Under the pieces are notes generated by a model. That model was not told the DNA's origin. It was given only the letters and a program-made list of their open reading frames with translations, and did not search any database. The translations under genes and the position numbers were made by a program. A stretch of 45,362 nucleotides of DNA, taken from contig CAUYTY010000144.1 in NCBI GenBank assembly GCA_963575655.1, positions 1 through 45,362 of the forward strand, read 5' to 3'. Below, piece by piece: positions 5,498 through 45,362 of this stretch. The first letter of the stretch is position 1. Every line of letters starts with the position of its first letter. Origin of the DNA: Gammaproteobacteria bacterium. GTDB lineage: Bacteria; Pseudomonadota; Gammaproteobacteria; CAIRSR01.

Positions 5498-5660
5498 GCC
5501 TGCGTAGGATGCGGTGAGGAACGAACCGCATCATTCGCGTTGTCCACTTTTACACCTATTTCGACGCGACGTATGTTGCCCGGATTGGGTGTACAACTCT
5601 GAGATAATTGTTGACGGTTGGAAATAACGCGCACGAATGATGCGGTTCGTTCCTCATAAG
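5498..5660. repeat. Dispersed repeat R1, copy A (inverted arms)
   Basis: The left arm (about 5504-5546) contains GATGCGGTGAGGAACGAACC followed by GCATCATTCGCG; the right arm (about 5627-5657) is its reverse complement. Inside each arm GATGCGG and CCGCATC can pair as a 7-bp stem. The centre differs from the other two copies. It lies in the gene-free stretch 5379-5778 between the phosphatase gene and the IS4-type element; I see nothing else there. Confidence 0.8.
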
Positions 5661-5778: not shown

Positions 5779-7184
5779 CAATACCTTCGCCATTAAACTA
5801 CGGGCTCTGGCAAGTTAACGCGGCCAAGAGAGGCCACCTGCCTGACGATGGCGTCAATGGAAATTGGCTCAGGGATTTGCGGAAGCCATTTTAAAGTTTC
5901 GCGGACATACTTTCCCGCGCGGAACCAAGCCTTGAGGTCAATGATGCTCATGCCGACGAACTTGGTTTGTCGCCTCAAGAGATGCGAAACATTGACCATG
6001 AAGAAGGCAAGGTTGGCAGCATTGATGGCAGGGCGTTCGTTGACGGACATGAAGTCGTCGAGCCCCCAGAACTGCTTGGCGTCACGAAAGTTGAACTCGA
6101 TTTGGAAGCGAAGCGAGTAATAGTCCATCAGCTCATTCCAGGCGAGGGCGAGATCGGAACTGAAGAGTAGAACATGGGCAGACTTGAGGGTTTTTAGGTT
6201 CGTTTTGATGATGATGACGACGTTGAGCAGTTCCGTGAATTTCTTGTGGCGCAAGCTCATCTGGTAGATGTCGGTACGGAGGTTGTCTTCGACCACGGAG
6301 AATTTACGGAAATGCTCGGGAAGCTGGCCGTAGTCGAGGCGAGCGCCATACTTTTTGCGTGGTCCCCGGCCGGATTGAAGACCCTCGTAGGGGAAATAAA
6401 GCGCGGAATCGTGGCGTAGCTTGGAAATGAGATGGAGACCACAGTGTCGGACCAATTGGACCCCGGCGTTGTGGCCGAGAGCCCCGTCATAGACGAAGTA
6501 GAGCAGCGGGAGGTCGGCGCCGACCAAAACCTGCAGGGCTTGGATCGCGTCCCGTAAGAATCGCTGGAATGCCGTCAGTTCTACTTCAGTGCGGACTTGG
6601 TTGCGGCTCCCCTTGGGGCGGCCGCGTCCCCGTTTGACGGTTGGCCGGGATGGAGCCGTCGGAGGTTTTTCCGGAGGGATTACCGGTAGCGTCATCACGG
6701 GATAGGACACACGGTCGTTGACCGAGGTCAGCGAGAGGCACAAATGGCATAGGCTGGGAAGCGGCTTACCGTAAATGGAGGAGAAGAACCGGCCTATCCC
6801 ATGGGTATGGCGGCCCGCCTTGGGTGTCACCACTTCGTCTGCGGTGAGCAATATCACGCAGGGAACTCGCATCAGGTGGCGACGGATGAGGTGCCACTGT
6901 ACTTTTTCCCACGGTATCAGGGTGTTGAAGAAACGCTGGACCGTGCGATAACTGCCGCCGGCTTCCGTCCAGCGTGAAATACCCAGCATGGTGACCCGCC
7001 CCGTCATGGTCAGAAGCGCGGCCACTACACGGGCTAGACGGCGCAAAGTGGTAGCGTTGAGGCAAGGAGCCAAACACGCCAGAAAAAATAAAAGGTCCAT
7101 CGGCTCCCCTGCGAGCAGCTGGATTAGTGGCCGCTAAGTATACCCTCTAACTTCCTGTGGTCATCAAATTTGGCGAACGTATTG
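5779..7184 (-). mobile_element. Intact IS4-family insertion sequence, 1406 bp
   Basis: The ends are imperfect inverted repeats, CAATACCTTCGCC at the left and the complement of CAATACGTTCGCC at the right. The element is flanked by the 6-bp direct repeat TAAAAA (5773-5778 and 7185-7190), which is A-rich and so less decisive alone. The assignment is backed by the second copy, which has the same ends and a different 6-bp duplication. It holds one transposase gene on the minus strand. Confidence 0.9.
5793..7100 (-). CDS. IS4-family transposase (intact copy)
   Basis: A 435-residue DDE transposase. The first catalytic Asp is probably in LLTADEVVTPKAG, the second in YFVYDGALGHNAG, and the catalytic Glu lies in YYSLRFQIEFNFRDAK. 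That last stretch fits the IS4-family signature Y-x2-R-x3-E-x6-K exactly. A Lys/Arg-rich linker with KRGRGRPKGSRN (an AT-hook-like motif) lies near residue 160. The start is preceded by AGGGGAGCC. The gene fills most of its element. The second copy at 23630 is identical up to its truncation, so the duplication is recent. Confidence 0.95.
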   Translation of the reverse strand: MDLLFFLACLAPCLNATTLRRLARVVAALLTMTGRVTMLGISRWTEAGGSYRTVQRFFNTLIPWEKVQWHLIRRHLMRVPCVILLTADEVVTPKAGRHTHGIGRFFSSIYGKPLPSLCHLCLSLTSVNDRVSYPVMTLPVIPPEKPPTAPSRPTVKRGRGRPKGSRNQVRTEVELTAFQRFLRDAIQALQVLVGADLPLLYFVYDGALGHNAGVQLVRHCGLHLISKLRHDSALYFPYEGLQSGRGPRKKYGARLDYGQLPEHFRKFSVVEDNLRTDIYQMSLRHKKFTELLNVVIIIKTNLKTLKSAHVLLFSSDLALAWNELMDYYSLRFQIEFNFRDAKQFWGLDDFMSVNERPAINAANLAFFMVNVSHLLRRQTKFVGMSIIDLKAWFRAGKYVRETLKWLPQIPEPISIDAIVRQVASLGRVNLPEPVV

Positions 7185-7230
7185 TAAAAAAAGACGATGT
7201 TATACGATGAAATCATACGAGATTGATATT

Positions 7231-7398
7231 AGCCTGCGTAGGGTACGTTGAGAAACGAACCGAATTATTCGTGTTATTCCCCACTCTCGATAATTATCTC
7301 AGGGTCACACGCCCAATTCAGACAACACACACCGTGTCGAACATAGGCGTGGAGATTGGACGACGCGAATGATGCGGTTCGTTCCTCACCGCATCCTT
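7231..7398. repeat. Dispersed repeat R1, copy B (unoccupied relative)
   Basis: A diverged left arm (about 7231-7272, GCCTGCGTAGGGTACGTTG) and a well-kept right arm (about 7362-7398, ACGCGAATGATGCGGTTCG). The centre contains GATAATTATCTCAGGG at about 7289-7304. Copy C has the same text with a different repeat inserted at exactly this point, so copy B shows the empty site. Confidence 0.85.
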
Positions 7399-11672: not shown

Positions 11673-11840
11673 ACCCAAGTTGCTACCTATAGCGCGCTTT
11701 TCTCCCCTCTTCCTCCGGGAAAGGGGCCGGGGATGAGGGCGTGATGCTGACGAATCAACAAATTCGCGCCCTCACCCCAACCCCTCTCCCGGGGGGAGAG
11801 GAGCTTTTTCGTTTCTCACCGCATAGGTAGCAACTTGGGT
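11673..11840 (+). repeat. MITE-like repeat R2, copy 1 (168 bp) with 6-bp target duplication
   Basis: Terminal inverted repeats ACCCAAGTTGCTACCTAT and its complement, flanked on both sides by TAAGTA (11667-11672 and 11841-11846). The interior has no ORF. It contains GC-rich arms and, near its right end, a hairpin followed by GCTTTTTCG that resembles an intrinsic terminator. It sits just upstream of rsfS. Confidence 0.9.
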
Positions 11841-12963: not shown

Positions 12964-15567
12964 TCAATAACGTTCGAAACCAACGTCGTCGTTATCACCG
13001 TGGGGGTGGTGGCCATCTAATTTTAGGGTGAAGCCTTTATTGCCGGATTGTCCGGTCATAGCGGGTGCTGTACCAGTGGCTTTAGCGGTCGCGGTACTTG
13101 CGGTTTTCTGATAACGTCGCGCACCGGTAATGGGTGGACGCTGTGGTGCGGTGATATGACCAGCATGACCAATATGACTGGCATGATTTGATGATTCTGT
13201 CCTGAGATGTTGCCGAGTATTACCCAGAGAGAAAAACGCAATGGTAGATTGTAATTGCTGGGCCTGGGCAGAGAGTTCTTCAGAGGTGGACGACATCTCT
13301 TCGGCGGCACTGGCGTTTTGTTGGGTCACCTGGTCGAGTTGCTGAATCGCTACGTTGATTTGTCCAGCCCCGGAATTCTGCTCGCGAGAGGCGACACTAA
13401 TCTCGGCAACAAGACTGGCAGTACGTTGAATATCCGGTACGAGTTTAGCCAACATCTGCCCAGCCACCTCCGAGGCGCCGACAGTTTGGGTTGAGAGCAG
13501 ACTAATCTCAGCCGCTGCGGTTTGGCTTCGTTCTGCGAGTTTGCGCACCTCGCTCGCGACTACCGCAAAACCTTTTCCATGTTCGCCAGCACGAGCGGCC
13601 TCGATTGCGGCATTCAAGGCAAGCAGATCGGTTTGGCGGGCAATCTCCTGAACGATGGTGATCTTCTGGGCGATAGTCTTCATGGCCGCTACCGCGTTAT
13701 TTACCGCCTCGCCACTGGTCGCAGCATCAGTAGCAGATTGACGGGCTATTTTCTCGGTTTCGGTGGCGTTGTCGGCGTTCTGACGAATATTGGCGGCCAT
13801 TTCCTCCATGGAAGATGACGCCTCCTCGGATGATGCAGCCTGTTCAGAAACTCCTTGCGAGAGTGTTTCGGCACTGGCACTCAATTGTGCGCTACCGGTA
13901 GCAACATTGGTGGCGGCGGTCGAGACATCAGTGACCACTTCGCGTAAACGTTCGACCATATTTTCGAGGGCAATACCTAATATGTCTTGCTCGGAGAGCC
14001 GTTTGGGTTGAACGCTAAGATCTCCCCGTGAGATCTGTTCGGCAATTCCCGCAGTGGTGCGTAGATTGGTGATCATATTTTCCAGGGCAATACCCAACAT
14101 GTCTTGATCGGACAACCGCTTGGCCTGAACGCTCAAATTCCCCCGAGAGATCTGTTCGGCAATCCCGGCCGTGGTACGCAGATTGGCGATCATACCCTCT
14201 AGGGCAATCCCCAACACATCCTTTTCCGATAACCGTTTAGCCTGAACCGTAAGATTGCCCCGTGAAATCTCACTGGCGATAGTAGCTGTGGCACGGAGAT
14301 TGGCGATCATTCCCTCCATGGCGATCCCTAGTAGGTCTTTTTCCGAGAGGCGCCTGGCTTGAACTGTCAGATCACCCTTGGCGATCTCCTCAGCAACCCC
14401 AGCAGTAGCACGCAGATTGGTACACATGCGATTCATTGCCGCGATTAGATCACCGATCTCTTCGCGGCCTCGGTACTCAATAGTCTGATTTAGGTCCCCT
14501 TCTGCTACTGCCAAGGCAAGCCCTCCCGCCTGCCGTAGCCCGCGCTGGATGGTGAATGAAATCCAAAACGCCACGGTGATGCTAATGAGGATTAGAGCCA
14601 CCGCAATCGTGATCAGCTCTTCACGAGAATTATCAAAGATGACATCGGCCAGTTTGGTGGCTACGGTCATTTCGTCCTTATTTTGTGCAACCACATCGCT
14701 AATCGTCGTGTTTAATTTTTCCATCAAATCGTTATTCTTCCCGAGAGTCAGGGCGGTGGACATAGCTTGGCCATTCTCAAGTACCGTGTCTCGAACCTTG
14801 TGGTGGATAGCAAGATAGGACTCCCAGGCGGTGATTAACCGTTGGATATCCGCTTGTTGGTTAGCAGTCGCACGCTCCCGTAGCGAAGTGATTAGCGTCT
14901 GAATATTTTGGAGGCGCGTATCAACCCCCTTCAAGAATTCCCGCATCTTGGGGATATCGTCAAACAGGATGAGCGCAGTTTCGTCGCGCTGAATATGCAT
15001 CATCTCCGTTGTGAGACGCCCGCGCGACCAAGTATTTGCCGCGGGGGTATTCCCGGTGGTGGCAGTAGTGGTGGCGTTCTCGATATCAGTCGCCGCCCTC
15101 ATGGCTGTTTCAAATGCCTCATTCCCCTTCCCGAGGCTGAGAGCAATGGCCGTGGCCGTTGAACTCAACATTGCTAGTCGAAGGGTCTCATCCTGGGACT
15201 TACTGAGTTCGTCAAGAGTCAAAATAAAGCTCTCGATCTTTTTCTTTTCTTCCGCGCTGGCCAGCGCTCGCCATTCTTCAACGGCGGCCTTGACATGATT
15301 TTGCTGGTTCTTGATATGGACAACAATCTGTTTGAGCTTTCCTGGGTCAGTCTCAATAATGGCATCTTTCTCGAGACCATCCAAATTCGCTAGTTCATTG
15401 TCCAAGATGAGTACTTGCCTAGTTTTTGCAACCGGTCCACCGACCACACCATCCTGGGTGTCGTTGAGGAAACGGAGATTGCTAATCCCTAGATAAGCTG
15501 AAATTGAGCTGAGGATCAGAATAATTGTAAAGGCGGTTACCAACCGGGCCTTAATGGTGAAACGCAT
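12964..15567 (-). CDS. Methyl-accepting chemotaxis protein with tandem HAMP repeats
   Basis: 867 residues. It starts [13 protein letters not shown], with a first membrane helix to about residue 32, a helical-bundle sensor of about 280 residues, a second membrane helix near 315-335, and a canonical HAMP ([20 protein letters not shown]). Four 39-residue HAMP-like units follow, each with the pattern [25 protein letters not shown]. The signalling hairpin has the tip [23 protein letters not shown]. The C-terminal linker ends in DDVGFERY. I chose ATG 15567 by match with the paralogue at 19026 and a GGAG site upstream; the frame is open 38 codons further. It is the last gene of the cluster on this strand. 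Confidence 0.93.
13939..14406 (-). repeat. Four tandem 117-bp in-frame repeats coding HAMP-like units
   Basis: Units at 14406-14290, 14289-14173, 14172-14056 and 14055-13939 each encode 39 residues beginning T-A-(G/T)-(I/V)-A. The last two are the most alike ([11 protein letters not shown] in both). The paralogous receptor at 16771-19026 has only one such unit at the same place, so three units were gained here or lost there. Confidence 0.9.
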
Positions 15568-15715
15568 AGTGGTGAACTCCAAAGCTGTAATCATTCGCCC
15601 CTTACCATTGGGAGGGGAGTGAACGGTTACCCAAAGTTTATGAACATGGATGGGGCAGAAGGTAATAACTTTCACATCCATCGAGAACGATGCGTTTCCT
15701 TAAGTTAATGCGTCT

Positions 15716-16292: not shown

Positions 16293-16793
16293 TTAAGTGG
16301 CGTTTGATACTACAACGTCCTCAGAGGCAAATACCTGATCGATATCGGCAACGATGATAAATTCGTCGCCGCGTTTACCAATCGCCCGGATGAATTCGGG
16401 TCGCCAGCGCATACCAATTCTCGGCACATCCTCTATCGAAGTACCTGGTAATTCTGTCACCTCGTAGACTTTATCGGCGAGTGCCCCCACCAAAACGGTC
16501 TCGCCCTCGATTCGTATCTCGATAACAACGATGCGCGTATCTGGTGTTGGAAGAATGGGGGGCATACCGAACTTGACGCGCAGGTCAGTAACCGAGACGA
16601 CCTTTCCACGCACATTGATCAGTCCCTTGATAAAGGGTCGGCTATTGGGGATGCGAGTAATCGGTACTCGATCGAGCACTTCATGGACTCGTTCCGTTTC
16701 AATAGCAAAGATCTCCCCGGCCAATCCCAGAGTTAGGACTTGAATCGCATTGCGATTGTTTTCTCCGGCATTAGTAACGTTCGAAGCTGACAT
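16293..16793 (-). CDS. cheW: CheW coupling protein (first of two)
   Basis: A 166-residue CheW-domain protein with [55 protein letters not shown] and [12 protein letters not shown] chose ATG 16793 ([10 protein letters not shown]) because AGGGG is 9 nt upstream. This start lies inside the end of the preceding chemoreceptor gene, overlapping it by 23 bp in another frame, which indicates translational coupling. The frame is open further upstream to 16886, but that part is the shadow of the receptor gene. Confidence 0.93.
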
Positions 16794-19026
16794 CGTCGCC
16801 ATCCCCTTGCAGGTGTTGATGATCGTCAAGCTTAAAGGTGTAGCCCCGGCCATTCTGATGCGTCTTAGGGGGGGCATGTTTGCCAATTGATTCTTGCTTG
16901 GTTGAGTCCGCTGGGCGTTGTTTTACCGATACGACCGACAATTTCGCCGATGCGGACCTCGCGGTGGTACGGTGAGGGCGAGGAGCGGGGGATGATTCTG
17001 AGATATTGCGGTTATAGGTAACCTTCGCCAGGGTAAAGAAGGCAATCGTCTCCTGAAGTTGCTGGGATTGCGCAGACAATTCCTCAGAGGTGGACGACAT
17101 TTCTTCGGCTGCGCTGGCGTTCTGTTGCGTTACCTGGTCGAGTTGTTGGATCGCGACGTTAATCTGTTCGGCACCGGAATTTTGTTCACGAGAGGCAGAA
17201 CTAATTTCAGTGACCAGGGCAGCGGTACGCTGGATATCAGGTACTAATTTTGCCAACATTTGCCCCGCTTCTTCCGAGACGACTACGGTTTGGGCCGAGA
17301 GCGTACTAATTTCCGTGGCGGCGGTTTGACTGCGTTCGGCGAGTTTACGAACCTCACTCGCTACGACCGCAAATCCTTTGCCGTGTTCACCCGCGCGCGC
17401 GGCTTCAATTGCAGCGTTGAGGGCGAGTAGATCGGTCTGACGTGCGATCTCTTGGATGATGGTAATTTTCTGGGCGATAGTCTTCATCGCTGCAACTGTT
17501 TTACCAACGGCCTCGCCGCTCTTGGCCGCATCGGTTGCGGATTGACGAGCTATTTTTTCGGTTTCGGTGGCGTTGTTGGCATTCTGACGAATATTGGCAC
17601 TCATCTCCTCCATGGAAGACGAGGCCTCCTCACTCGACGCTGCTTGTTCGGAGACCCCTTGAGATAGCGTTTCGGCACTGGCGCTCAATTGTTCGCTGCC
17701 GGTGGCGACATTGGTGGCGGCGGTAGATACGTCGGTCACCACCTCGCGCAGGCGCTCGACCATAGTCTCTAGGGCAATACCGAGAGCATCCTTATCAGAG
17801 AGCCGCTTGGTCTGAACGGTTAGATTGCCTTTTGCGATCTCCTCGGCAATCCCTGCGGTGGCACGAAGATTAGCGCACATACAATTCATTGCGTTGATCA
17901 AATCGCCAATCTCTTCACGGCCTCGGTATTCGATAGTTTTGGTCAGATCCCCTTCGGCCACGGCTTGGGCAAGCTCTCCTGCCTGTTGCAAGCCACGGCG
18001 GATAATAAATAGGATCCACAATGCCGCCATAATGCCGAGGAGGAGCGAAAAACCGGTAGCAATCATTAGTTCGCCACGGGCGTCATCATAGATATTATCT
18101 GCTTGTTTGGTTGCAGCGACCATTGCGTCCTTATTTTGTGTCACAATATCCGCGACGATGGTATTTAACCGCTCAAGCAATTCATGGTTCTTGCCCAGCG
18201 CCAGAGAAATAGCAAAGGCCTTACTGTTATCGAGTACGACCTCACGGATCTTATGATGAATGGTTAGATAGCTGTCCCAGGCCGTCATTAACCGCTGCAC
18301 CTCCGCTAATTGTCCAGAGGCGACTCGTTCACGTAGGGAGGTAAACAAAGTTTGGATATTTCTAAGGCGTTCATCGACCCCCTTCAGAAACTCGTGCATC
18401 TTTGGGATTTCGTCGAGCAGGATGAGGTAGGTTTCGTCGTGTTGGACACGCGCCATTTCGGTGGTAATGCGTCCAAGGGTAGCGATAACGCGGGTATCGT
18501 TATTAGTGGTAGCGGGGGGGGCGGTAGTAATGGATCGATCAAGGTCGGCAGCCACTTTCATAGCCACTTCGAATGCCTCACTGGCCTTTCCGGTACTAAG
18601 TGCAGTGACGGTTAAGACTGAATTTAACATAGCCAAGCGTAGCGTTTCCTCCTGAGACTTGGTTAGTTCATTCAGGATGGAGACAAACTTTTCGATCTTT
18701 TTCTTTTCATCAGGATTTGCCAACGCTTGCCATTCCTCAATAATTTCCTTTATTCTGGACTGTTGATTCTTGATGTCGAGAACGATCTGTTTGATTTTTC
18801 CGTTATCCGTTTCAATAATAGCATTTTTCTCAAGACCTTCCAGGTCAGATAGTATGGCGTCGAGGGTTAGGATGAGCCGGGTTTTAACAACAGGTCCCTC
18901 CACCACGCTATCTTGGGTTTCGTTGAGAAGTCGGAGGTTGCTAATTCCGAAAAAAGCCGAAATGCTCGTCAGCACTAAGATTGATGCAAAGGCAGCAACC
19001 AATCGAGCTTTGATGGTGAAACGCAT
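16771..19026 (-). CDS. Methyl-accepting chemotaxis protein (paralogue with one extra HAMP unit)
   Basis: 751 residues, homologous along its length to the receptor at 12964-15567. Two membrane helices (about 10-32 and 315-335) frame a helical-bundle sensor. Then come a canonical HAMP ([20 protein letters not shown]), one HAMP-like unit ([20 protein letters not shown]) and the signalling hairpin with [23 protein letters not shown]. The tail is a long polar linker ending DDVSFERY, nearly the same final residues as the paralogue. AGGAG lies 8 nt before the ATG. It overlaps cheW downstream. The upstream gap to cheA is filled by repeats R1 and R2. Confidence 0.95.
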
Positions 19027-19067: not shown

Positions 19068-19406
19068 GCCCGTAGGATGCGGTGAGGAACGAATCGCATC
19101 ATTCGCGTTATTTTCCACCTTGATAACTAACCCAAGTTGCTACCTTAGCACGCCTTTCTCCCCTCTCCCTTCGGGAGAGGGGCCGGGAGCGAGGGCGTGA
19201 TGCTAACGAATCAATAAATTCTCACCCTCACCCCAACCCCTTTCCCGAAGGGAGGGGGCTTTTTCGTTTCTCATCGCATGGGTGGCAACTTGGGTTAACT
19301 ATCTCAGGGTTACACGCCCAATCCAGGCAATACACACCGCGTCGAACATAGGCGTAGAGGTTGGACGACGCGAATGATGCGGTTTGTTCCTCACCGCATC
19401 CTACGT
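19068..19406. repeat. Dispersed repeat R1, copy C (split by an R2 element)
   Basis: The left arm (19069-19110, GTAGGATGCGGTGAGGAACG) and right arm (19369-19405) are reverse complements and match copies A and B. Between them the R1 centre reads GATAACTA, then the R2 insertion, then TAACTATCTCAGGG. Removing R2 and one TAACTA restores the text seen uninterrupted in copy B. It occupies nearly all of the 383-bp gap between cheA and the receptor gene. Confidence 0.9.
19130..19295 (+). repeat. MITE-like repeat R2, copy 2 (166 bp), nested in R1
   Basis: The ends are ACCCAAGTTGCTACC and GGTGGCAACTTGGGT, flanked by TAACTA at 19124-19129 and 19296-19301. Near the right end a GC-rich hairpin is followed by GCTTTTTCG. 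The terminator-like feature points along the plus strand, opposite to the chemotaxis genes, so it should not stop cheA-to-receptor transcription. Confidence 0.92.
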
Positions 19407-19409
19407 GGG

Positions 19410-21542
19410 CTATTGCCGAACGGGTGTTTGGGGAACCGCTCCCATTCTAAGCGTAGTTTCACGTTCGCGGGCGAATTGGATCAGGTGAGGAATGTCGAGA
19501 ATTAGGGAAACCCCGCCATCGCCAAGAATAGTCGCGCCGGAGAAGCCTTCCAAGTCACGATGCAGACGGGAGAGCGACTTGATCACCGTCTGATGCTGGC
19601 CAATTACCTGATCAACCACCAACCCGATGCGCGATTCGCCGAATGCGACAATAACCACCTTTTGGATATCGGGGACAGTTCCCGGCATGTTGAATAACTG
19701 CCGAAGACGAATGAAAGCGACAATCTCGCCGCGAATATTGAGAAAGCTTCGACCATCAGAGCGATCATTCTCTTGGCGGGTAAGTTCCACACACTCCTCA
19801 ACGGCAGTGAGCGGAATGACATAACGCTCGTCACCCATTCGTACCAATAGCCCATCGATAATAGCCAAGGTCAGCGGTAGTTTGAGCGTAATTGCAGTAC
19901 CTCGACCAATAGTGCTGCTAATATCGATACTGCCACGCAGGCTGTCGATAGTGCGTTTAACAACATCCATACCCACGCCACGACCGGACATATTGGTTAC
20001 CGTGGTGGCGGTCGATAGACCAGGTTGAAAGATACAGGCAAATAACTCTGCCTCGCTGACCTCTTGGCCGGATTGAAGCAAGCCGCGCTCCTCTGCTTTG
20101 GCACGAATGGCGGTGCGATCCAGCCCGCGCCCATCGTCCTCAATGGTGATCAATACCTGAGCGCCCGAATGAATCGCGGACAGATGGAGTTTTCCCGATA
20201 CGGGTTTATCGTGGGCCTGTCGTTGCGCTTTATCCTCAATGCCATGATCAATGGAATTGCGGATCAGGTGAACCAAGGGATCGTTTAGATTCTCGATGAC
20301 GGTCTTGTCGAGTTCGGTTTCTTCGCCAGAAGTGGTCAATTCGACCGATTTACCGAGTTCGTGCGACAGATCATGGACTACTCGACGAAATCGACCAAAG
20401 AGAGTGCCAATCGGTAACATGCGTACGCTCATGGTCGTATCGCGTAATCCGGCGGCCAGGCGTTCGATATCTTCAGCAATGGATTTAAGGAGGGGGCTAT
20501 TCTCGGTTGCGGCAACCTGTTGGAGTCGAGCCTGGGCAATGACTAATTCTCCAACCTGATCCATTAGACTATCGAGACGCTCGGCGGGGACGCGAATAGT
20601 GCTCCCCGAGGTTGCACTTTCCCGCGCTTTGGCGGCCTGCGCGAGGTGATTTTGTTCACTGAGTGCGGCGGCCAGGTGATCTTTCGAGACTTTACCCGAC
20701 TGCACCAACATCGTTCCGAGTCGTTGCTGTCGTTGGAGTTCTTCTTCAACGTCGGCGGGGGCAATATCCCCGCGCTTGACAAGAATTTCACCAAGCCGTG
20801 GCGGTGATGCGTCCTTTTCGAACGGGAGTTCGTCGATGACCAATTCCGAACGGTCGGCAACAAAGATGAAAATATCATCAAGCGTCGCACGATTCGCCCG
20901 GGTGGTTAGCATTAGATCCCAACCCAGGTAACACTTCGTGGATTCCAAATTGGGAAGCAAAGGCACCCGATCGGTCATTGGCACTACGGTACAGGGGCCA
21001 AGTGCGCGTAATTCGTCCAAGAGCAGGAGCGGATTGCCTCCAAATTCCAACATATCACGGCTGGGGTACCAACGGATATGAAAGATACGTTCCAGATTGG
21101 GAAGCGGGGTAGGGCTAGCGGGGGATGGAGTAGGCGTAAGAGATTTCTGTGAGGAGGAATGACCGGTACCAGCGGTGAGATCGGCAAACGCGGCCAGAAG
21201 TGCCCCACCGCGTACCCGGTCGGCCTGCTCGGGGTGCTCCAATAATATTCGTAGGTGGTCGAGTGCCGCGAGGGTGAGTGATACCAGATCGGCGCTTGCC
21301 GCAAGGGTACCATCGCGTACCTTTTGAAAGGCGCTTTCGATATGGTGGGTAAATGAGGCAAGCGCATCCCACCCAAACATTGCGCCAGAACCTTTGATCG
21401 TATGCAGGGCACGAAACGCCTGATCGACCAATTCGAGATTATCGGGGGAGTTTTCCAGGTCGAGCAGGCTGGTCTCAAGCTGGATGAGAAGGTCCGCTGC
21501 CTCCTGCTTGAAGATTTCCGACGGATTCGCCGTGTGTGCCAT
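19410..21542 (-). CDS. cheA: Chemotaxis histidine kinase CheA
   Basis: 710 residues. P1 (HPt) with phospho-acceptor His47 in RALHTIKGSGAMFG; a Pro/Ser-rich linker; a middle region at about 150-310 unlike the usual P2; the P3 dimerisation helix (LDSLMDQVGELVIAQARLQQ); the P4 ATPase with HLIRNSIDHGIE (N box), DDGRGLD (G1) and SGRGVGMDVVK (G2); and a P5 CheW-like domain at the end. It phosphorylates CheY in response to receptors. The middle region holds two copies of an LGEILVKRG/LGTMLVQSG-type motif resembling the N domains of type II secretion and pilus ATPases. The start has AAGG 6 nt upstream. It follows cheY by about 134 bp. Confidence 0.95.
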   Translation of the reverse strand: MAHTANPSEIFKQEAADLLIQLETSLLDLENSPDNLELVDQAFRALHTIKGSGAMFGWDALASFTHHIESAFQKVRDGTLAASADLVSLTLAALDHLRILLEHPEQADRVRGGALLAAFADLTAGTGHSSSQKSLTPTPSPASPTPLPNLERIFHIRWYPSRDMLEFGGNPLLLLDELRALGPCTVVPMTDRVPLLPNLESTKCYLGWDLMLTTRANRATLDDIFIFVADRSELVIDELPFEKDASPPRLGEILVKRGDIAPADVEEELQRQQRLGTMLVQSGKVSKDHLAAALSEQNHLAQAAKARESATSGSTIRVPAERLDSLMDQVGELVIAQARLQQVAATENSPLLKSIAEDIERLAAGLRDTTMSVRMLPIGTLFGRFRRVVHDLSHELGKSVELTTSGEETELDKTVIENLNDPLVHLIRNSIDHGIEDKAQRQAHDKPVSGKLHLSAIHSGAQVLITIEDDGRGLDRTAIRAKAEERGLLQSGQEVSEAELFACIFQPGLSTATTVTNMSGRGVGMDVVKRTIDSLRGSIDISSTIGRGTAITLKLPLTLAIIDGLLVRMGDERYVIPLTAVEECVELTRQENDRSDGRSFLNIRGEIVAFIRLRQLFNMPGTVPDIQKVVIVAFGESRIGLVVDQVIGQHQTVIKSLSRLHRDLEGFSGATILGDGGVSLILDIPHLIQFARERETTLRMGAVPQTPVRQ

Positions 21543-23460: not shown

Positions 23461-23629
23461 AAATAATAGAAGCCATCGTTGAACAATGATACTGGCATAG
23501 AATATCCTCTATATGTTCTTGGTAATATTACCATTGTCGTCAGAACAATACGTTCGCCAAATTTGATGACCACAGGAAGTTAGAGGGTATACTTAGCGGC
23601 CACTAATCCAGCTGCTCGCAGGGGAGCCG

Positions 23630-24801
23630 ATGGACCTTTTATTTTTTCTGGCGTGTTTGGCTCCTTGCCTCAACGCTACCACTTTGCGCCGTCTAGCCCG
23701 TGTAGTGGCCGCGCTTCTGACCATGACGGGGCGGGTCACCATGCTGGGTATTTCACGCTGGACGGAAGCCGGCGGCAGTTATCGCACGGTCCAGCGTTTC
23801 TTCAACACCCTGATACCGTGGGAAAAAGTACAGTGGCACCTCATCCGTCGCCACCTGATGCGAGTTCCCTGCGTGATATTGCTCACCGCAGACGAAGTGG
23901 TGACACCCAAGGCGGGCCGCCATACCCATGGGATAGGCCGGTTCTTCTCCTCCATTTACGGTAAGCCGCTTCCCAGCCTATGCCATTTGTGCCTCTCGCT
24001 GACCTCGGTCAACGACCGTGTGTCCTATCCCGTGATGACGCTACCGGTAATCCCTCCGGAAAAACCTCCGACGGCTCCATCCCGGCCAACCGTCAAACGG
24101 GGACGCGGCCGCCCCAAGGGGAGCCGCAACCAAGTCCGCACTGAAGTAGAACTGACGGCATTCCAGCGATTCTTACGGGACGCGATCCAAGCCCTGCAGG
24201 TTTTGGTCGGCGCCGACCTCCCGCTGCTCTACTTCGTCTATGACGGGGCTCTCGGCCACAACGCCGGGGTCCAATTGGTCCGACACTGTGGTCTCCATCT
24301 CATTTCCAAGCTACGCCACGATTCCGCGCTTTATTTCCCCTACGAGGGTCTTCAATCCGGCCGGGGACCACGCAAAAAGTATGGCGCTCGCCTCGACTAC
24401 GGCCAGCTTCCCGAGCATTTCCGTAAATTCTCCGTGGTCGAAGACAACCTCCGTACCGACATCTACCAGATGAGCTTGCGCCACAAGAAATTCACGGAAC
24501 TGCTCAACGTCGTCATCATCATCAAAACGAACCTAAAAACCCTCAAGTCTGCCCATGTTCTACTCTTCAGTTCCGATCTCGCCCTCGCCTGGAATGAGCT
24601 GATGGACTATTACTCGCTTCGCTTCCAAATCGAGTTCAACTTTCGTGACGCCAAGCAGTTCTGGGGGCTCGACGACTTCATGTCCGTCAACGAACGCCCT
24701 GCCATCAATGCTGCCAACCTTGCCTTCTTCATGGTCAATGTTTCGCATCTCTTGAGGCGACAAACCAAGTTCGTCGGCATGAGCATCATTGACCTCAAGG
24801 C
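23630..24801 (+). pseudogene. IS4-family transposase, 3' end lost
   Basis: Identical to the 435-residue transposase at 5793-7100 up to residue 391 (MSIIDLKA), including the DDE region and the Y-x2-R-x3-E-x6-K signature. It then runs into an IS1-type end and stops at 24880 after 25 foreign residues. It lacks the last 44 residues. Because the catalytic core remains it could in theory retain some activity, but I expect it to be dead. Confidence 0.93.
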
Positions 24802-25068: not shown

Positions 25069-25224
25069 ATGTTGACCACAATCCGCTGCCTTCATTGCAA
25101 TTCTGAAGACTGCCGTATCTCCAAAACTTATAATACATCCAGCAACGGCAGCAGAAATCTTTATGAATGCAATAGCTGTCGGAATGTTTTTTCAGAAACA
25201 AAAGGAACATTTATGGAGAATATA
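25069..25224 (+). pseudogene. IS1-type InsA-like N-terminal fragment, cut by the IS630-type element
   Basis: About 52 codons starting MLTTIRCLHCNSEDCRISKT, with a zinc-finger pattern C-x2-C...C-x2-C and the ending FSETKGTFMEN seen in IS1-type InsA proteins. It points in the opposite direction to the C-terminal IS1 fragment next to it, so it comes from a second IS1 copy or from an inversion. It ends at the TA where the IS630-type element is inserted. Confidence 0.7.
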
Positions 25225-26368
25225 CTAACCTGCGCGTTGGTTAGGGGACAAGCAAGTAAAAATAATCTATTATTAGTCCAACCAAAAAATAAGACATGAA
25301 ATTGCTAAAATTATGAAAAATTCTGATGGACGTTCTCTCGATCACTCTACCCTTGAGTATATAAGGCTTCAAGCAGTAAAAGCTGTACGTAAAGGAATGT
25401 CTCCTAGGGAGGTGGGCGAGATTTTCGGTATGCACCGATCGAAGGTGTACGAATGGGTGAAGAAGGCAAAAGAGATGGGTCTAGCTACGTTAAATGCGAA
25501 ACCTGTCCCTGGAAGAAAATCCTTCATCAATGAACAGCAAGAAGGAATACTCGTATTCTGGCTGTGCGCATTTACCCCATTGGATTTTGAATTCTCGACA
25601 GTCTTATGGACAACTGAAATGATAAAGACATTAATAGAGAGGAAATTTTCTATTTACATGAGTCGTTCCGCGGTGGGCCGTTTTTTGCGCCGCATTAATT
25701 TAACTCCACAACGGCCAGTATATCGTGCGATAGAGAGGGACCAATTTTCAGTAGATAATTGGATTAACAAAGAGTTTCCTAGAATCAAAGAGTTGGCAAG
25801 TAATGAGGGTGCTATAATCTATTTTCTTGATGAGGCTGGGGCGCGCACCGATTATCACGCGGGTACAACTTGGGGGCTAGAAGGTTTAACTCCCATAATT
25901 CCCTCCACTGGTGGACGTTATCGCATAAATATGATCGCTGCGATAACTTCTGAAGGAAAGATGCATTTCCAAATAGGTCCCTCATCGCTCAATGGTGGTG
26001 CGTTTGTTGAATATCTAAAAATTTTGGCTCAAGAGAATTCATGCCCCATCTATATTGTAACAGACGGGTATTCTGCCCATCATGCAAAAGTAGTTAAGGA
26101 ATATCTGGAGACGACAAATGGAAAGGTTAAAATATTCTTTCTTCCCACCTATTCTCCACACCTTAATCCTGTCGAGCTAGTATGGAGCAATATTAAGACA
26201 CAAGGAATTGCGCGTCACCTTATTCGTAATGTGGAGGAGTTAAAAAATAAAGCTACTCAACTTTTAGAGGATTTAAAAAAATCGCCAGAGAAAGTCAGAG
26301 AACTTTTTAAAGAAGAATCCGTCCAATATGCTATTTAGCTGGAGTCCCCTAACCAACGCGCAGGTTAG
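25225..26368 (+). mobile_element. Intact IS630-family insertion sequence, copy 1 (1144 bp)
   Basis: Perfect 25-bp terminal inverted repeats beginning CTAACCTGCGCGTTGGTTAG, flanked by TA on both sides (25223-25224 and 26369-26370). TA duplication is typical of IS630/Tc1/mariner elements. Each terminal repeat is itself partly palindromic (CTAACC/GGTTAG). It carries one transposase gene. It is AT-richer than the host genes around it. A second full copy of exactly the same length lies at 41750-42893. Confidence 0.97.
25313..26338 (+). CDS. IS630-family transposase, copy 1
   Basis: 341 residues. The N terminus has a helix-turn-helix of Tc1/IS630 type (MSPREVGEIFGMHRSKVYEWVKK) followed by a GRKSF linker. 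The catalytic DDE residues lie in IYFLDEAGARTD, IYIVTDGYSAHHAK and PTYSPHLNPVELVWSNIK. The gene starts 88 bp inside the left terminal repeat and stops 30 bp before the right end. The protein is identical to the copy at 41780-42805, so transposition was recent. Confidence 0.97.
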   Translation: MKNSDGRSLDHSTLEYIRLQAVKAVRKGMSPREVGEIFGMHRSKVYEWVKKAKEMGLATLNAKPVPGRKSFINEQQEGILVFWLCAFTPLDFEFSTVLWTTEMIKTLIERKFSIYMSRSAVGRFLRRINLTPQRPVYRAIERDQFSVDNWINKEFPRIKELASNEGAIIYFLDEAGARTDYHAGTTWGLEGLTPIIPSTGGRYRINMIAAITSEGKMHFQIGPSSLNGGAFVEYLKILAQENSCPIYIVTDGYSAHHAKVVKEYLETTNGKVKIFFLPTYSPHLNPVELVWSNIKTQGIARHLIRNVEELKNKATQLLEDLKKSPEKVRELFKEESVQYAI

Positions 26369-26400
26369 TAATGGCGAAGGTATTGTCAGAACACACAATA

Positions 26401-30094: not shown

Positions 30095-30181
30095 ACCCAA
30101 GTTGCCACCTTGCGCACTTTTCCCCTCTCCCTCCGGGAGAGGGGCTTTTTCGTTTCTCTCCGCATAGGTGGCAACCTGAGT
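30095..30181 (+). repeat. MITE-like repeat R2, copy 3 (87 bp), with a terminator-like hairpin
   Basis: Left end ACCCAAGTTGCCACC, right end GGTGGCAACCTGAGT. The flanks (TAGTTA and TGAGCT) do not match, so the duplication has decayed or the right end is rearranged. Inside, CCCCTCTC and GAGAGGGG pair and are followed by CTTTTTCG on the plus strand. Lying after the plus-strand kinase gene, this is well placed to end its transcript. Confidence 0.8.
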
Positions 30182-39151: not shown

Positions 39152-39240
39152 GTCCAAGTTGCTACCTATGCGGTGAGAAACGAAAAAGCCCCTCTCCAGG
39201 AGGAAGAGAGGAGAAAAGCGCGCTAGGTAGCAACTTGGGT
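39152..39240 (-). repeat. MITE-like repeat R2, copy 4 (89 bp) with 6-bp target duplication
   Basis: Reverse orientation to the other three copies. Ends GTCCAAGTTGCTACC and GGTAGCAACTTGGGT, flanked by TATCTA (39146-39151 and 39241-39246). The terminator-like hairpin with its T run (seen as CGAAAAAGC on the plus strand) faces the minus strand, so it should not stop nadK transcription. A solitary R2-like end (GCTAGCAACTCAAGT followed by TATCTA) lies nearby at about 39297-39317. Confidence 0.88.
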
Positions 39241-39318: not shown

Positions 39319-39483
39319 AGACATTATCGGAAACCTCACCCCCCAACCCCCTCTCCTTAACAGGAGGGGGGAGAATTATTCCGTTGTTATGCTTAACTCC
39401 TGGACGGAACAGGCAAAAAATCTCCCCCTCTCCTGTTAAGGAGAGGGGGGCGGGGGTGAGGTTTTGGGTTTCCGATAATGTCT
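39319..39483. repeat. MITE-like repeat R3, copy 3 (165 bp)
   Basis: Ends AGACATTATCGGAAACC and GGTTTCCGATAATGTCT, perfect inverted repeats flanked by ATT (39316-39318 and 39484-39486). The interior holds pyrimidine-rich palindromes (CTCTCCTTAACAGGAG and CTCTCCTGTTAAGGAG). It lies just upstream of the SCO-like gene, so that gene's promoter is either inside the element or in the remaining 55 bp. Confidence 0.9.
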
Positions 39484-41415: not shown

Positions 41416-41749
41416 AATGACCCCGCTCGCACTTGTCACCCATAGCTCACCAGGGCGGCTACGCCTCAAAGTTCCCAGTGTGCGGGGCGAGGAAGAATGG
41501 TTTCTAGCGGCACAAACACAACTTGCGACCTGTGCCGAGGTTCGAGAGGTGGAGGTCAATTCCCACACGGCAAGTATCCTCGTACACCACAACGGTAATG
41601 CGGATGTAGTATTCAATTGGGCTCAGACACAAGGCCTATTTGAGATGGAGGATCCGTCTAAGGGGCCACCAGCATCCGTCGCCGCCACGGTACGTCAGGG
41701 TCTCAACCGTTTCGATAACATGTTGGCCGCAGTGAGCAACGGCGCATTA

Positions 41750-42893
41750 CTAACCTGCGCGTTGGTTAGGGGACTCCAGCTAAATAGCATATTGGACGGA
41801 TTCTTCTTTAAAAAGTTCTCTGACTTTCTCTGGCGATTTTTTTAAATCCTCTAAAAGTTGAGTAGCTTTATTTTTTAACTCCTCCACATTACGAATAAGG
41901 TGACGCGCAATTCCTTGTGTCTTAATATTGCTCCATACTAGCTCGACAGGATTAAGGTGTGGAGAATAGGTGGGAAGAAAGAATATTTTAACCTTTCCAT
42001 TTGTCGTCTCCAGATATTCCTTAACTACTTTTGCATGATGGGCAGAATACCCGTCTGTTACAATATAGATGGGGCATGAATTCTCTTGAGCCAAAATTTT
42101 TAGATATTCAACAAACGCACCACCATTGAGCGATGAGGGACCTATTTGGAAATGCATCTTTCCTTCAGAAGTTATCGCAGCGATCATATTTATGCGATAA
42201 CGTCCACCAGTGGAGGGAATTATGGGAGTTAAACCTTCTAGCCCCCAAGTTGTACCCGCGTGATAATCGGTGCGCGCCCCAGCCTCATCAAGAAAATAGA
42301 TTATAGCACCCTCATTACTTGCCAACTCTTTGATTCTAGGAAACTCTTTGTTAATCCAATTATCTACTGAAAATTGGTCCCTCTCTATCGCACGATATAC
42401 TGGCCGTTGTGGAGTTAAATTAATGCGGCGCAAAAAACGGCCCACCGCGGAACGACTCATGTAAATAGAAAATTTCCTCTCTATTAATGTCTTTATCATT
42501 TCAGTTGTCCATAAGACTGTCGAGAATTCAAAATCCAATGGGGTAAATGCGCACAGCCAGAATACGAGTATTCCTTCTTGCTGTTCATTGATGAAGGATT
42601 TTCTTCCAGGGACAGGTTTCGCATTTAACGTAGCTAGACCCATCTCTTTTGCCTTCTTCACCCATTCGTACACCTTCGATCGGTGCATACCGAAAATCTC
42701 GCCCACCTCCCTAGGAGACATTCCTTTACGTACAGCTTTTACTGCTTGAAGCCTTATATACTCAAGGGTAGAGTGATCGAGAGAACGTCCATCAGAATTT
42801 TTCATAATTTTAGCAATTTCATGTCTTATTTTTTGGTTGGACTAATAATAGATTATTTTTACTTGCTTGTCCCCTAACCAACGCGCAGGTTAG
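41750..42893 (-). mobile_element. Intact IS630-family insertion sequence, copy 2 (1144 bp)
   Basis: Reverse orientation. The same terminal repeats as copy 1 and the same length. TA lies on both sides (41748-41749 and 42894-42895). It is inserted in the HMA-like gene. Confidence 0.97.
41780..42805 (-). CDS. IS630-family transposase, copy 2
   Basis: 341 residues, identical to the copy at 25313-26338: helix-turn-helix at the N terminus and DDE catalytic core (LDEAG, TDGYSAHH, LNPVELVW). Because both copies are full length and have perfect ends, either could be the active source. Confidence 0.97.
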   Translation of the reverse strand: MKNSDGRSLDHSTLEYIRLQAVKAVRKGMSPREVGEIFGMHRSKVYEWVKKAKEMGLATLNAKPVPGRKSFINEQQEGILVFWLCAFTPLDFEFSTVLWTTEMIKTLIERKFSIYMSRSAVGRFLRRINLTPQRPVYRAIERDQFSVDNWINKEFPRIKELASNEGAIIYFLDEAGARTDYHAGTTWGLEGLTPIIPSTGGRYRINMIAAITSEGKMHFQIGPSSLNGGAFVEYLKILAQENSCPIYIVTDGYSAHHAKVVKEYLETTNGKVKIFFLPTYSPHLNPVELVWSNIKTQGIARHLIRNVEELKNKATQLLEDLKKSPEKVRELFKEESVQYAI

Positions 42894-43313
42894 TAGACAT
42901 CAATAGCTTATTGTTCGTAACCTTCTCAACGGCGGTTGTGGTTCAGTTTCTACGGGGACAGTACGTAGGCCCAGTGACAACTCTAATGGAGCAAGCATTG
43001 CGAAGCCTGTTTTTTGTAGTGTCGAGCCCCCCTAAGTAGACCTCCAATCCTGTCATTGCTTACCTTACCATGTTGCTGCGCTTTGCCAAATTGATTACCG
43101 AGAATTTTCCTGCCGTCGTCACCCACTCTTGGCTTATTTCCTCGCGATGCGAATCAAACGCAATCGCGCCCCCCCCAGGGAAAGTGGGCGTCTCGCCCAC
43201 TCTTATGCGGCCAAGATGGCCACGCTCCCAAAAGGATCTAAACGATTATCGCCAGATTTGCAGCTTTACGCCTTTTTATCTACTACCGGTAATTCCTGAA
43301 GGTCAACCGACCA

Positions 43314-44958: not shown

Positions 44959-45312
44959 GTGAGCGACCACATCCATCATGTCCCCGGCCGGTTGCGGGTA
45001 CGTAATCCGGCTCTAAAAAATAATGCAGAGCGGTTCAAGTCAGTGGAGGAAAGTCTGGCGGGAATGACCGGTATTCAAGCCCTGCGGTTGAACTCTCTGA
45101 CCGGAAGTATCGTGGTCAATTACGATATTCACCATATTGACGGAGCCGCTATCCTCATGCGGCTCAAGGAACACCGCCATGTAGACCATCACTTGGAGAT
45201 GAACGAGCCTCTTCCGGTTCCAGAAGAATGGTCGTGGGGTAGCCTTGCCGTCAATGCTGGCCAAATCGTCGGCAAGGCTGTCCTGGGCACCCTCCTAGAA
45301 AAAGCCTTTCTA
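44959..45312 (+). pseudogene. Second HMA-like protein gene, interrupted by IS630-type copy 3
   Basis: About 118 codons from GTG 44959 (AGGG about 5 nt upstream) to the insertion at TA 45311-45312. It starts VSDHIHHVPGRLRVRNPALK, with the same PGRLR(L/V) motif as the first HMA-like gene, then LNSLTGSIVVNYDIHHIDGA. A hydrophobic part begins at the end (VNAGQIVGKAVLGTLLEKAF). It lacks a CxxC metal site. Whether the gene resumes beyond the element cannot be seen. Between it and the preceding gene (44850-44958) lies only a short spacer. Confidence 0.82.
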
Positions 45313-45362
45313 CTAACCTGCGCGTTGGTTAGGGGACAAGCAAGTAAAAATAATCTATTATT
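45313..45362 (+). mobile_element. IS630-family element, copy 3 (left end only, window edge)
   Basis: The first 50 bp match the left end of copy 1 exactly, including the terminal repeat and AAGCAAGTAAAAATAATCTA. It is preceded by TA (45311-45312). The rest lies outside the window. Confidence 0.93.

Follow-up and report, generated by a model that had tools for sequence, protein, structure and literature searches.

The described element most similar in kind to the one considered here is MITECca01 of Cardinium cOegib, which is about 240 bp long, is derived from ISCca4 of the IS982 family and, in the part of its published account that we draw on, is thought to be mobilised by the transposase of its parent (PMC9769881). 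R2, an element in the window (the whole stretch of 45,362 nucleotides that was analysed, a contig of a gammaproteobacterial draft genome), shares with MITECca01 that it is short, free of coding sequence, present in many copies and bounded by ends that closely resemble those found in an IS982-family element (PMC9769881). With the IS982 family itself (NF033520, PF13612) it has in common the terminal inverted repeats and the kind of flanking duplication, but it carries no transposase gene and its interior is unrelated to those elements as far as compared. Set against the same account of MITECca01 (PMC9769881), differences are also evident: intact parent copies are reported from the Cardinium genome, whereas only a remnant was found for R2; the R2 family falls into several size classes (about 88, 145, 164-168 and 215-221 bp); and one R2 copy has been caught inside another repeat of which empty sites survive. 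The likeness is one of kind. Since an IS982-derived MITE has already been described in Cardinium (PMC9769881), R2 belongs to a kind already known; our search of open-licence literature found no paper that names the R2 element or these genomes.

The repeat that received R2, called R1, resembles another described group. In the portion of PMC3733652 on which we rely, GTAG-tagged REP sequences form head-to-head dimers, and R1 has the same design, with inverted GTAG and GATGCGG...CCGCATC motifs, GTAG to the outside and a conserved spacer; as in the GTAG-tagged REPs, its arms also occur singly (PMC3733652). REPINs, as far as the relevant part of PMC3116915 describes them, are structurally close as well. 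Unlike REP dimers and REPINs, R1 has arms that are absent from the fetched flanks of six Y1 loci, and its copy number is modest (51 arms). We consider it highly probable that R2 is a MITE with IS982-group ends, served by an IS982-type transposase in trans, which inserted into an already existing, REP-dimer-like copy of R1. The features on which this reading is built are as follows.

19068-19406, plus strand: R1 copy C, interrupted by R2; both sides of R2 align with R1 copies A and B
19072-19108, plus strand: left GTAG-headed palindrome (REP-like arm) of copy C, one substitution from the reference arm, supported by folding
19124-19129, no strand: left copy of the target duplication TAACTA, read from the sequence
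19130-19295, plus strand: R2, a 166-bp MITE with ends ACCCAAGTTGC...GCAACTTGGGT, from sequence, paired ends and folding
19296-19301, no strand: right copy of the target duplication TAACTA, read from the sequence
19368-19404, minus strand: right GTAG-headed palindrome (REP-like arm) of copy C, inverted; the 38-bp arms are 95% complementary
7231-7398, plus strand: R1 copy B, uninterrupted, with the empty site GATAATTATC, from alignment
5506-5656, minus strand: R1 copy A, centre uninterrupted and one arm altered, from alignment

The R2 family and IS982 transposases

R2 has the ends ACCCAAGTTGCYACC of its family, and its predicted fold is one long hairpin over nearly the whole length. At 166 bp it is far below the size of a transposase gene and has no coding capacity, in keeping with a MITE. 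It is also multicopy and dispersed: with at most one mismatch, the end pattern AACCCAAGTTGCNACC occurs 510 times in the genome, a 4.2 Mb draft in 261 contigs (259 and 251 per strand, with none for the reversed-pattern control), 63 matches were returned with R2 as query, and 46 paired copies were examined. By length, the elements with paired ends fall into classes of about 87-90, 143-147, 162-169 and 215-221 bp, whose interiors differ from class to class; R2 is 90.9% identical to the consensus of its own size class, among the more diverged of 19 copies. Further members lie elsewhere in the window, each recognised by its paired ends.

11673-11840, plus strand: second MITE of R2 size, 168 bp, flanked by TAAGTA (positions 1507-1674 of locus L008)
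30095-30181, plus strand: 87-bp MITE of the same superfamily, with no exact target duplication left
39152-39240, minus strand: 89-bp MITE of the same superfamily, flanked by TATCTA

Target duplications were assessed in the 46 paired R2-type copies within the fetched sequence of this genome. In 29 of them the flanks repeat each other exactly over 6-8 bp (6 bp in 19, 7 bp in eight and 8 bp in two); when flanks were paired by shuffling (1000 trials), on average 2.0 copies and at most eight had a repeat of at least 6 bp. The last base of the duplication is A in all 29, and the first is T in 27. One copy has a 5-bp repeat and 16 have no exact duplication; we tentatively ascribe these 17 copies to decay or recombination.

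Other features of the family concern its arrangement. MITEs of different size classes may lie almost end to end (locus L079 at 287-525, and loci L075, L081 and L057), and these abutting elements share or adjoin TTAATTA-type target sites, as if the duplication made by one were the target of the next. Many contigs end about 35 bp inside a ACCCAAGTTGC end, for example C13, C20, C47 and C87 (loci L062, L063, L065 and L066), and the fragmentation of the assembly is thus likely to have near-identical MITE copies among its causes. Across the whole window Rfam gave no match at the gathering threshold; 28 weak matches, mostly to microRNA-type hairpins, all scored below it and were taken as chance.

The link to IS982 comes from other genomes. 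A scan of named bacterial genomes with the end sequence yielded at least 117 loci, and the matches listed include Poribacteria, Chloroflexi, Armatimonadetes, cyanobacteria, relatives of Thermus and sulphur bacteria, with the ACCCAAGTTGC-type end also found, among those listed, in records of Candidatus Contendobacter, Chromatium and Thiotrichales. Short end pairs of 60-400 bp number 44, in 41 of the 117 loci listed, and 23 of the pairs are flanked by a duplication of at least 6 bp, against a shuffled mean of 1.4. The loci had been chosen by end sequence alone, and 24 of the 117 listed contain an IS982-like coding stretch, as detected with a same-genus transposase protein as query; in all 24 the distance from this stretch to an end sequence is no more than about 100 bp, and in many a contig end leaves just the final 25-35 residues. 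Complete elements were also recovered. End pairs and flanking repeats enclose a transposase frame in Calidithermus (895 bp, L086), Rhabdochromatium (959 bp, L111) and a Rubrobacter MAG (925 bp, L173); a same-genus genome (G001) has an element of 1205 bp with both ends, a frame of 275 aa and the flanks TAAAATTA (L230); and a Pseudanabaena plasmid carries one of 907 bp whose gene is annotated as an IS982 family transposase, flanked by TACGTA (L255). Two proteins were run against the NCBIfam IS982 model (cut-off 130 bits), with scores of 189 for G001 and 166 for Rhabdochromatium, and the PF13612 cut-off was passed by those of Calidithermus, Rhabdochromatium and Rubrobacter. In an alignment of four long proteins, conserved acidic positions fit what we take to be the motif of a DDE enzyme. 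R2 has only its ends in common with the full-length IS982 elements, its interior being unrelated to theirs as far as compared, which lends no support to an origin from one of them by internal deletion. Among plasmid and phage records, the R2-type repeat was matched by a single plasmid record, over 42 bases, and by no phage record.

Within its own genome, no intact matching IS982 transposase gene was found in the 261-contig draft. The search found a remnant at a contig end (C250:67442-67756) of about 105 residues, which in a protein search is 48% identical to a transposase of Rhabdochromatium. Its start codon lies about 100 bp inside a ACCCAAGTTGCCACC end preceded by ATATCTA, and the coding stretch breaks off close to what is presumed to be the first catalytic aspartate, at the start of an end of a third MITE family, R3. 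Four further IS982 matches are present in the genome, and the one whose ends were read has ACCTGAGTTCGACG ends and a TAGGTA duplication, again of the T...A form. An IS982 gene with other ends, at positions 1247-2310 of locus L084, is flanked by two 145-bp MITEs, one truncated and fused to its left end, the other complete and located at its right end. The matching source is therefore either represented here by the remnant, or is an intact copy missing from the assembly or collapsed in it, and it is for this reason that movement of R2 by an IS982-type transposase acting in trans, the most likely course, is something that we infer.

On this reading an IS982-family DDE transposase, made elsewhere, would bind the two ACCCAAGTTGC ends of R2 and either cut the element out or copy it. 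The element would then be joined into a T...A target rich in A+T that had been cut in a staggered way, the two cuts being about 6-8 bp apart, and repair of the gaps would leave the TAACTA duplication. R1 was already present before R2 arrived.

The alternative that R2 was moved by another transposase family of the genome, such as the IS701-like or IS630-like elements of the window, draws on the fact that these have apparently intact copies in the window and that no intact matching IS982 gene was found in the genome. The IS630-like copies, however, have other ends (TACTAACCTGCGCG...), and in other genomes pairs of ACCCAAGTTGC ends flank IS982 genes with the same T...A duplications, so that we regard this alternative as very unlikely and retain an IS982-type transposase as the most likely agent, with the IS701-like element as a minor candidate.

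The junction and its empty sites

Positions 19124-19301 consist of TAACTA, the 166 bp from ACCCAAGTTGC to GCAACTTGGGT, and TAACTA once more; the R1 sequence runs up to ...CACCTTGATAACTA at 19129 on the left and resumes with TAACTATCTCAGGG from 19296 on the right. The preliminary description had proposed that R2 entered an R1 copy and duplicated TAACTA, and that removing 19130-19301 would restore an R1 centre matching that of copy B. This span is exactly R2 plus one TAACTA duplication. After its removal, 19068-19406 aligns with 7231-7398 at 143 of 164 positions (87.2%), with seven gap columns, none of them at the junction, and the R1 centres match on both sides of the insertion (45 of 56 positions identical on the left, 98 of 108 on the right). 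A second aligner gave 84.8% for the same pair of copies.

The comparison was extended to an R1 alignment of 15 rows, made up of the three window copies (A, B and C) and 12 of 30 loci. The centre GATAA(C/T)TATC, or a close variant, is uninterrupted on both sides in 11 of the 14 rows other than copy C (A, B, L033, L035, L036, L037, L038, L039, L043, L044 and L046). Two of the 14 show it on one side (L041 on the right, L047 on the left), and row L042 stops in another inserted element before the centre is reached. The target TAACTA itself occurs in several rows, for example L033, L038 and L044, which indicates that the single-base difference in copy B (TAATTA) is ordinary variation among R1 copies. 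These empty sites are paralogous R1 copies and not the orthologous site. For the latter no empty counterpart was found: the intergenic stretch outside the repeats had no match in 55 other genomes, some of which do match short segments of the kinase coding sequence, and in the same-genus genome all 11 matches lie within its own R2-type copies (71-77%) and none in the flanking genes.

An uninterrupted centre could formally also arise in the opposite direction, if copy C were the original composite with R2 ancestral and the other R1 copies had lost R2 by precise excision together with one duplication, which would leave the same empty sequence. This would require an independent precise loss in every one of the 11 rows that are uninterrupted on both sides, and it sits poorly with the presence of R2-size copies at many unrelated places, each with a different duplication of its own; we give it hardly any credence. 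Many copies of these repeats coincide with breaks in the draft, yet a junction made by recombination or by an assembly join of two repeats is most improbable given that the R1 halves, the R2 ends and a perfect duplication stand in order within one 339-bp stretch between two chemotaxis genes; the duplication would not be expected from a chance join.

Junctions, duplication and the many uninterrupted R1 copies are concordant with the entry of R2 into a pre-existing R1 copy, and to this extent the preliminary description is upheld. It assigned neither repeat to a known type, and had further taken the locus as proof of mobility. The past insertion of R2 is demonstrated, but the same evidence does not cover present activity.

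Repeat R1, R3 and relative age

R1 is about 167 bp long and consists of an arm (GTAGGATGCGGTGAGGAACGAACCGCATC...), the same arm inverted and, between them, a spacer that varies little in sequence; in the predicted fold the arms pair over about 39 bp. Allowing at most three mismatches, the arm occurs 51 times in the genome, paired and single. Inverted GTAG-headed palindromes around a conserved spacer are the hallmark of a REP dimer or REPIN, and R1 has both. An association with a RAYT (Y1) gene was not seen, as the six Y1 matches in the genome have no R1 arm with up to eight substitutions in their fetched flanks. No agent that moves R1 was found, and no target duplication was seen by eye at the ends of R1 in the aligned rows.

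R1 copies are also associated with R3, a third MITE family, which has ends AGACATTATCGGAAACC and occurs in forms of 165-167 bp and 99-100 bp, with 3-bp flanks of ATT or AAT at most complete copies. R3 is found inside two other R1 copies (loci L042 and L233), where it has entered the spacer at an identical base. The R3 copies are as follows.

39319-39483 of the window: R3 copy
1575-1741 of locus L042: R3 copy
554-720 of locus L233: R3 copy
2521-2619 of locus L084: R3 copy
2599-2765 of locus L004: R3 copy

It is conceivable, and in our view unlikely, that R1 is a recurrent landing site for several unrelated transposases, with an accessible, A+T-rich target offered by a cruciform extruded from the long palindrome. 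With the non-coding share of the DNA taken as about 15% and the number of R1 copies as about 25, a rough estimate gives between one and two expected R2-type insertions in R1; one was seen, so that there is no sign of a preference of R2 for R1.

The insertion also orders the two repeats in time, and the preliminary description had concluded that R1 is older than this R2 copy. For the two copies concerned this stands, this R1 copy being older than this R2 copy, but the order should not be transferred to the families. Within the genome, mean pairwise identity is 81.6% for R1 (eight copies) and 90.4% for copies of R2 size (19 copies). The count of R2-type ends is 147 for the same-genus genome G001 and 144 for the same-family genome G002 (reversed-pattern controls 0 and 2, respectively) and none were found in G003, whereas R1 had no match in G001 or G003 and a single one, of 23 bp, in G002. 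The picture for family ages is mixed, R1 being more diverged within the genome and the R2 family more widespread across relatives, and because R2-type ends are abundant in G001 and G002 where R1 is nearly absent, the order of the copy pair cannot be read as an order of the families.

Surroundings and significance

The genes on either side of the nest of R1 and R2 are both on the minus strand, a methyl-accepting chemotaxis gene at 16771-19026 and a gene for a CheA-type histidine kinase at 19410-21542; the nest begins about 40 bp upstream of the first ATG of the former. Within R2 a terminator-like hairpin followed by a T run is predicted on the plus strand at 19237-19258. The prediction gives three terminator-like sites between 18900 and 19500, compared with 0.7 expected, and two of the three are overlapping forms of this same hairpin; on the strand of the two chemotaxis genes, the prediction places no such site within R2. 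An effect of R2 on the expression of neighbouring genes is possible.

Elsewhere in the window, two IS701-like copies (5929-7185 and 23545-24801) form an inverted pair with 100% identity, and score below the NCBIfam cut-offs and above the Pfam cut-off for DDE_5. Two IS630-family copies (25223-26373 and 41745-42895) likewise form an inverted pair with 100% identity, and the contig ends with a further 52-54 bp of an IS630-family element (45309-45362). A tandem repeat with a unit of 117 nt (39 codons) occupies 13953-14440 within a methyl-accepting chemotaxis gene (12964-15681), and a unit related to it is present at 17757-17893 in the neighbouring gene (16771-19026).

The locus presents a clean, base-exact MITE insertion with preserved empty sites. 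It is an ordinary case, and the general view of transposition is unchanged by it. Were R1 indeed a landing site, mobile elements would accumulate in R1 rather than in genes. For this genome, the comparison points to the transposase family most likely responsible for small repeats that are very abundant (about 250 copies, provided that all ends are paired), allows several repeat copies to be ordered in time, and offers a likely explanation for part of the fragmentation of the draft assembly.
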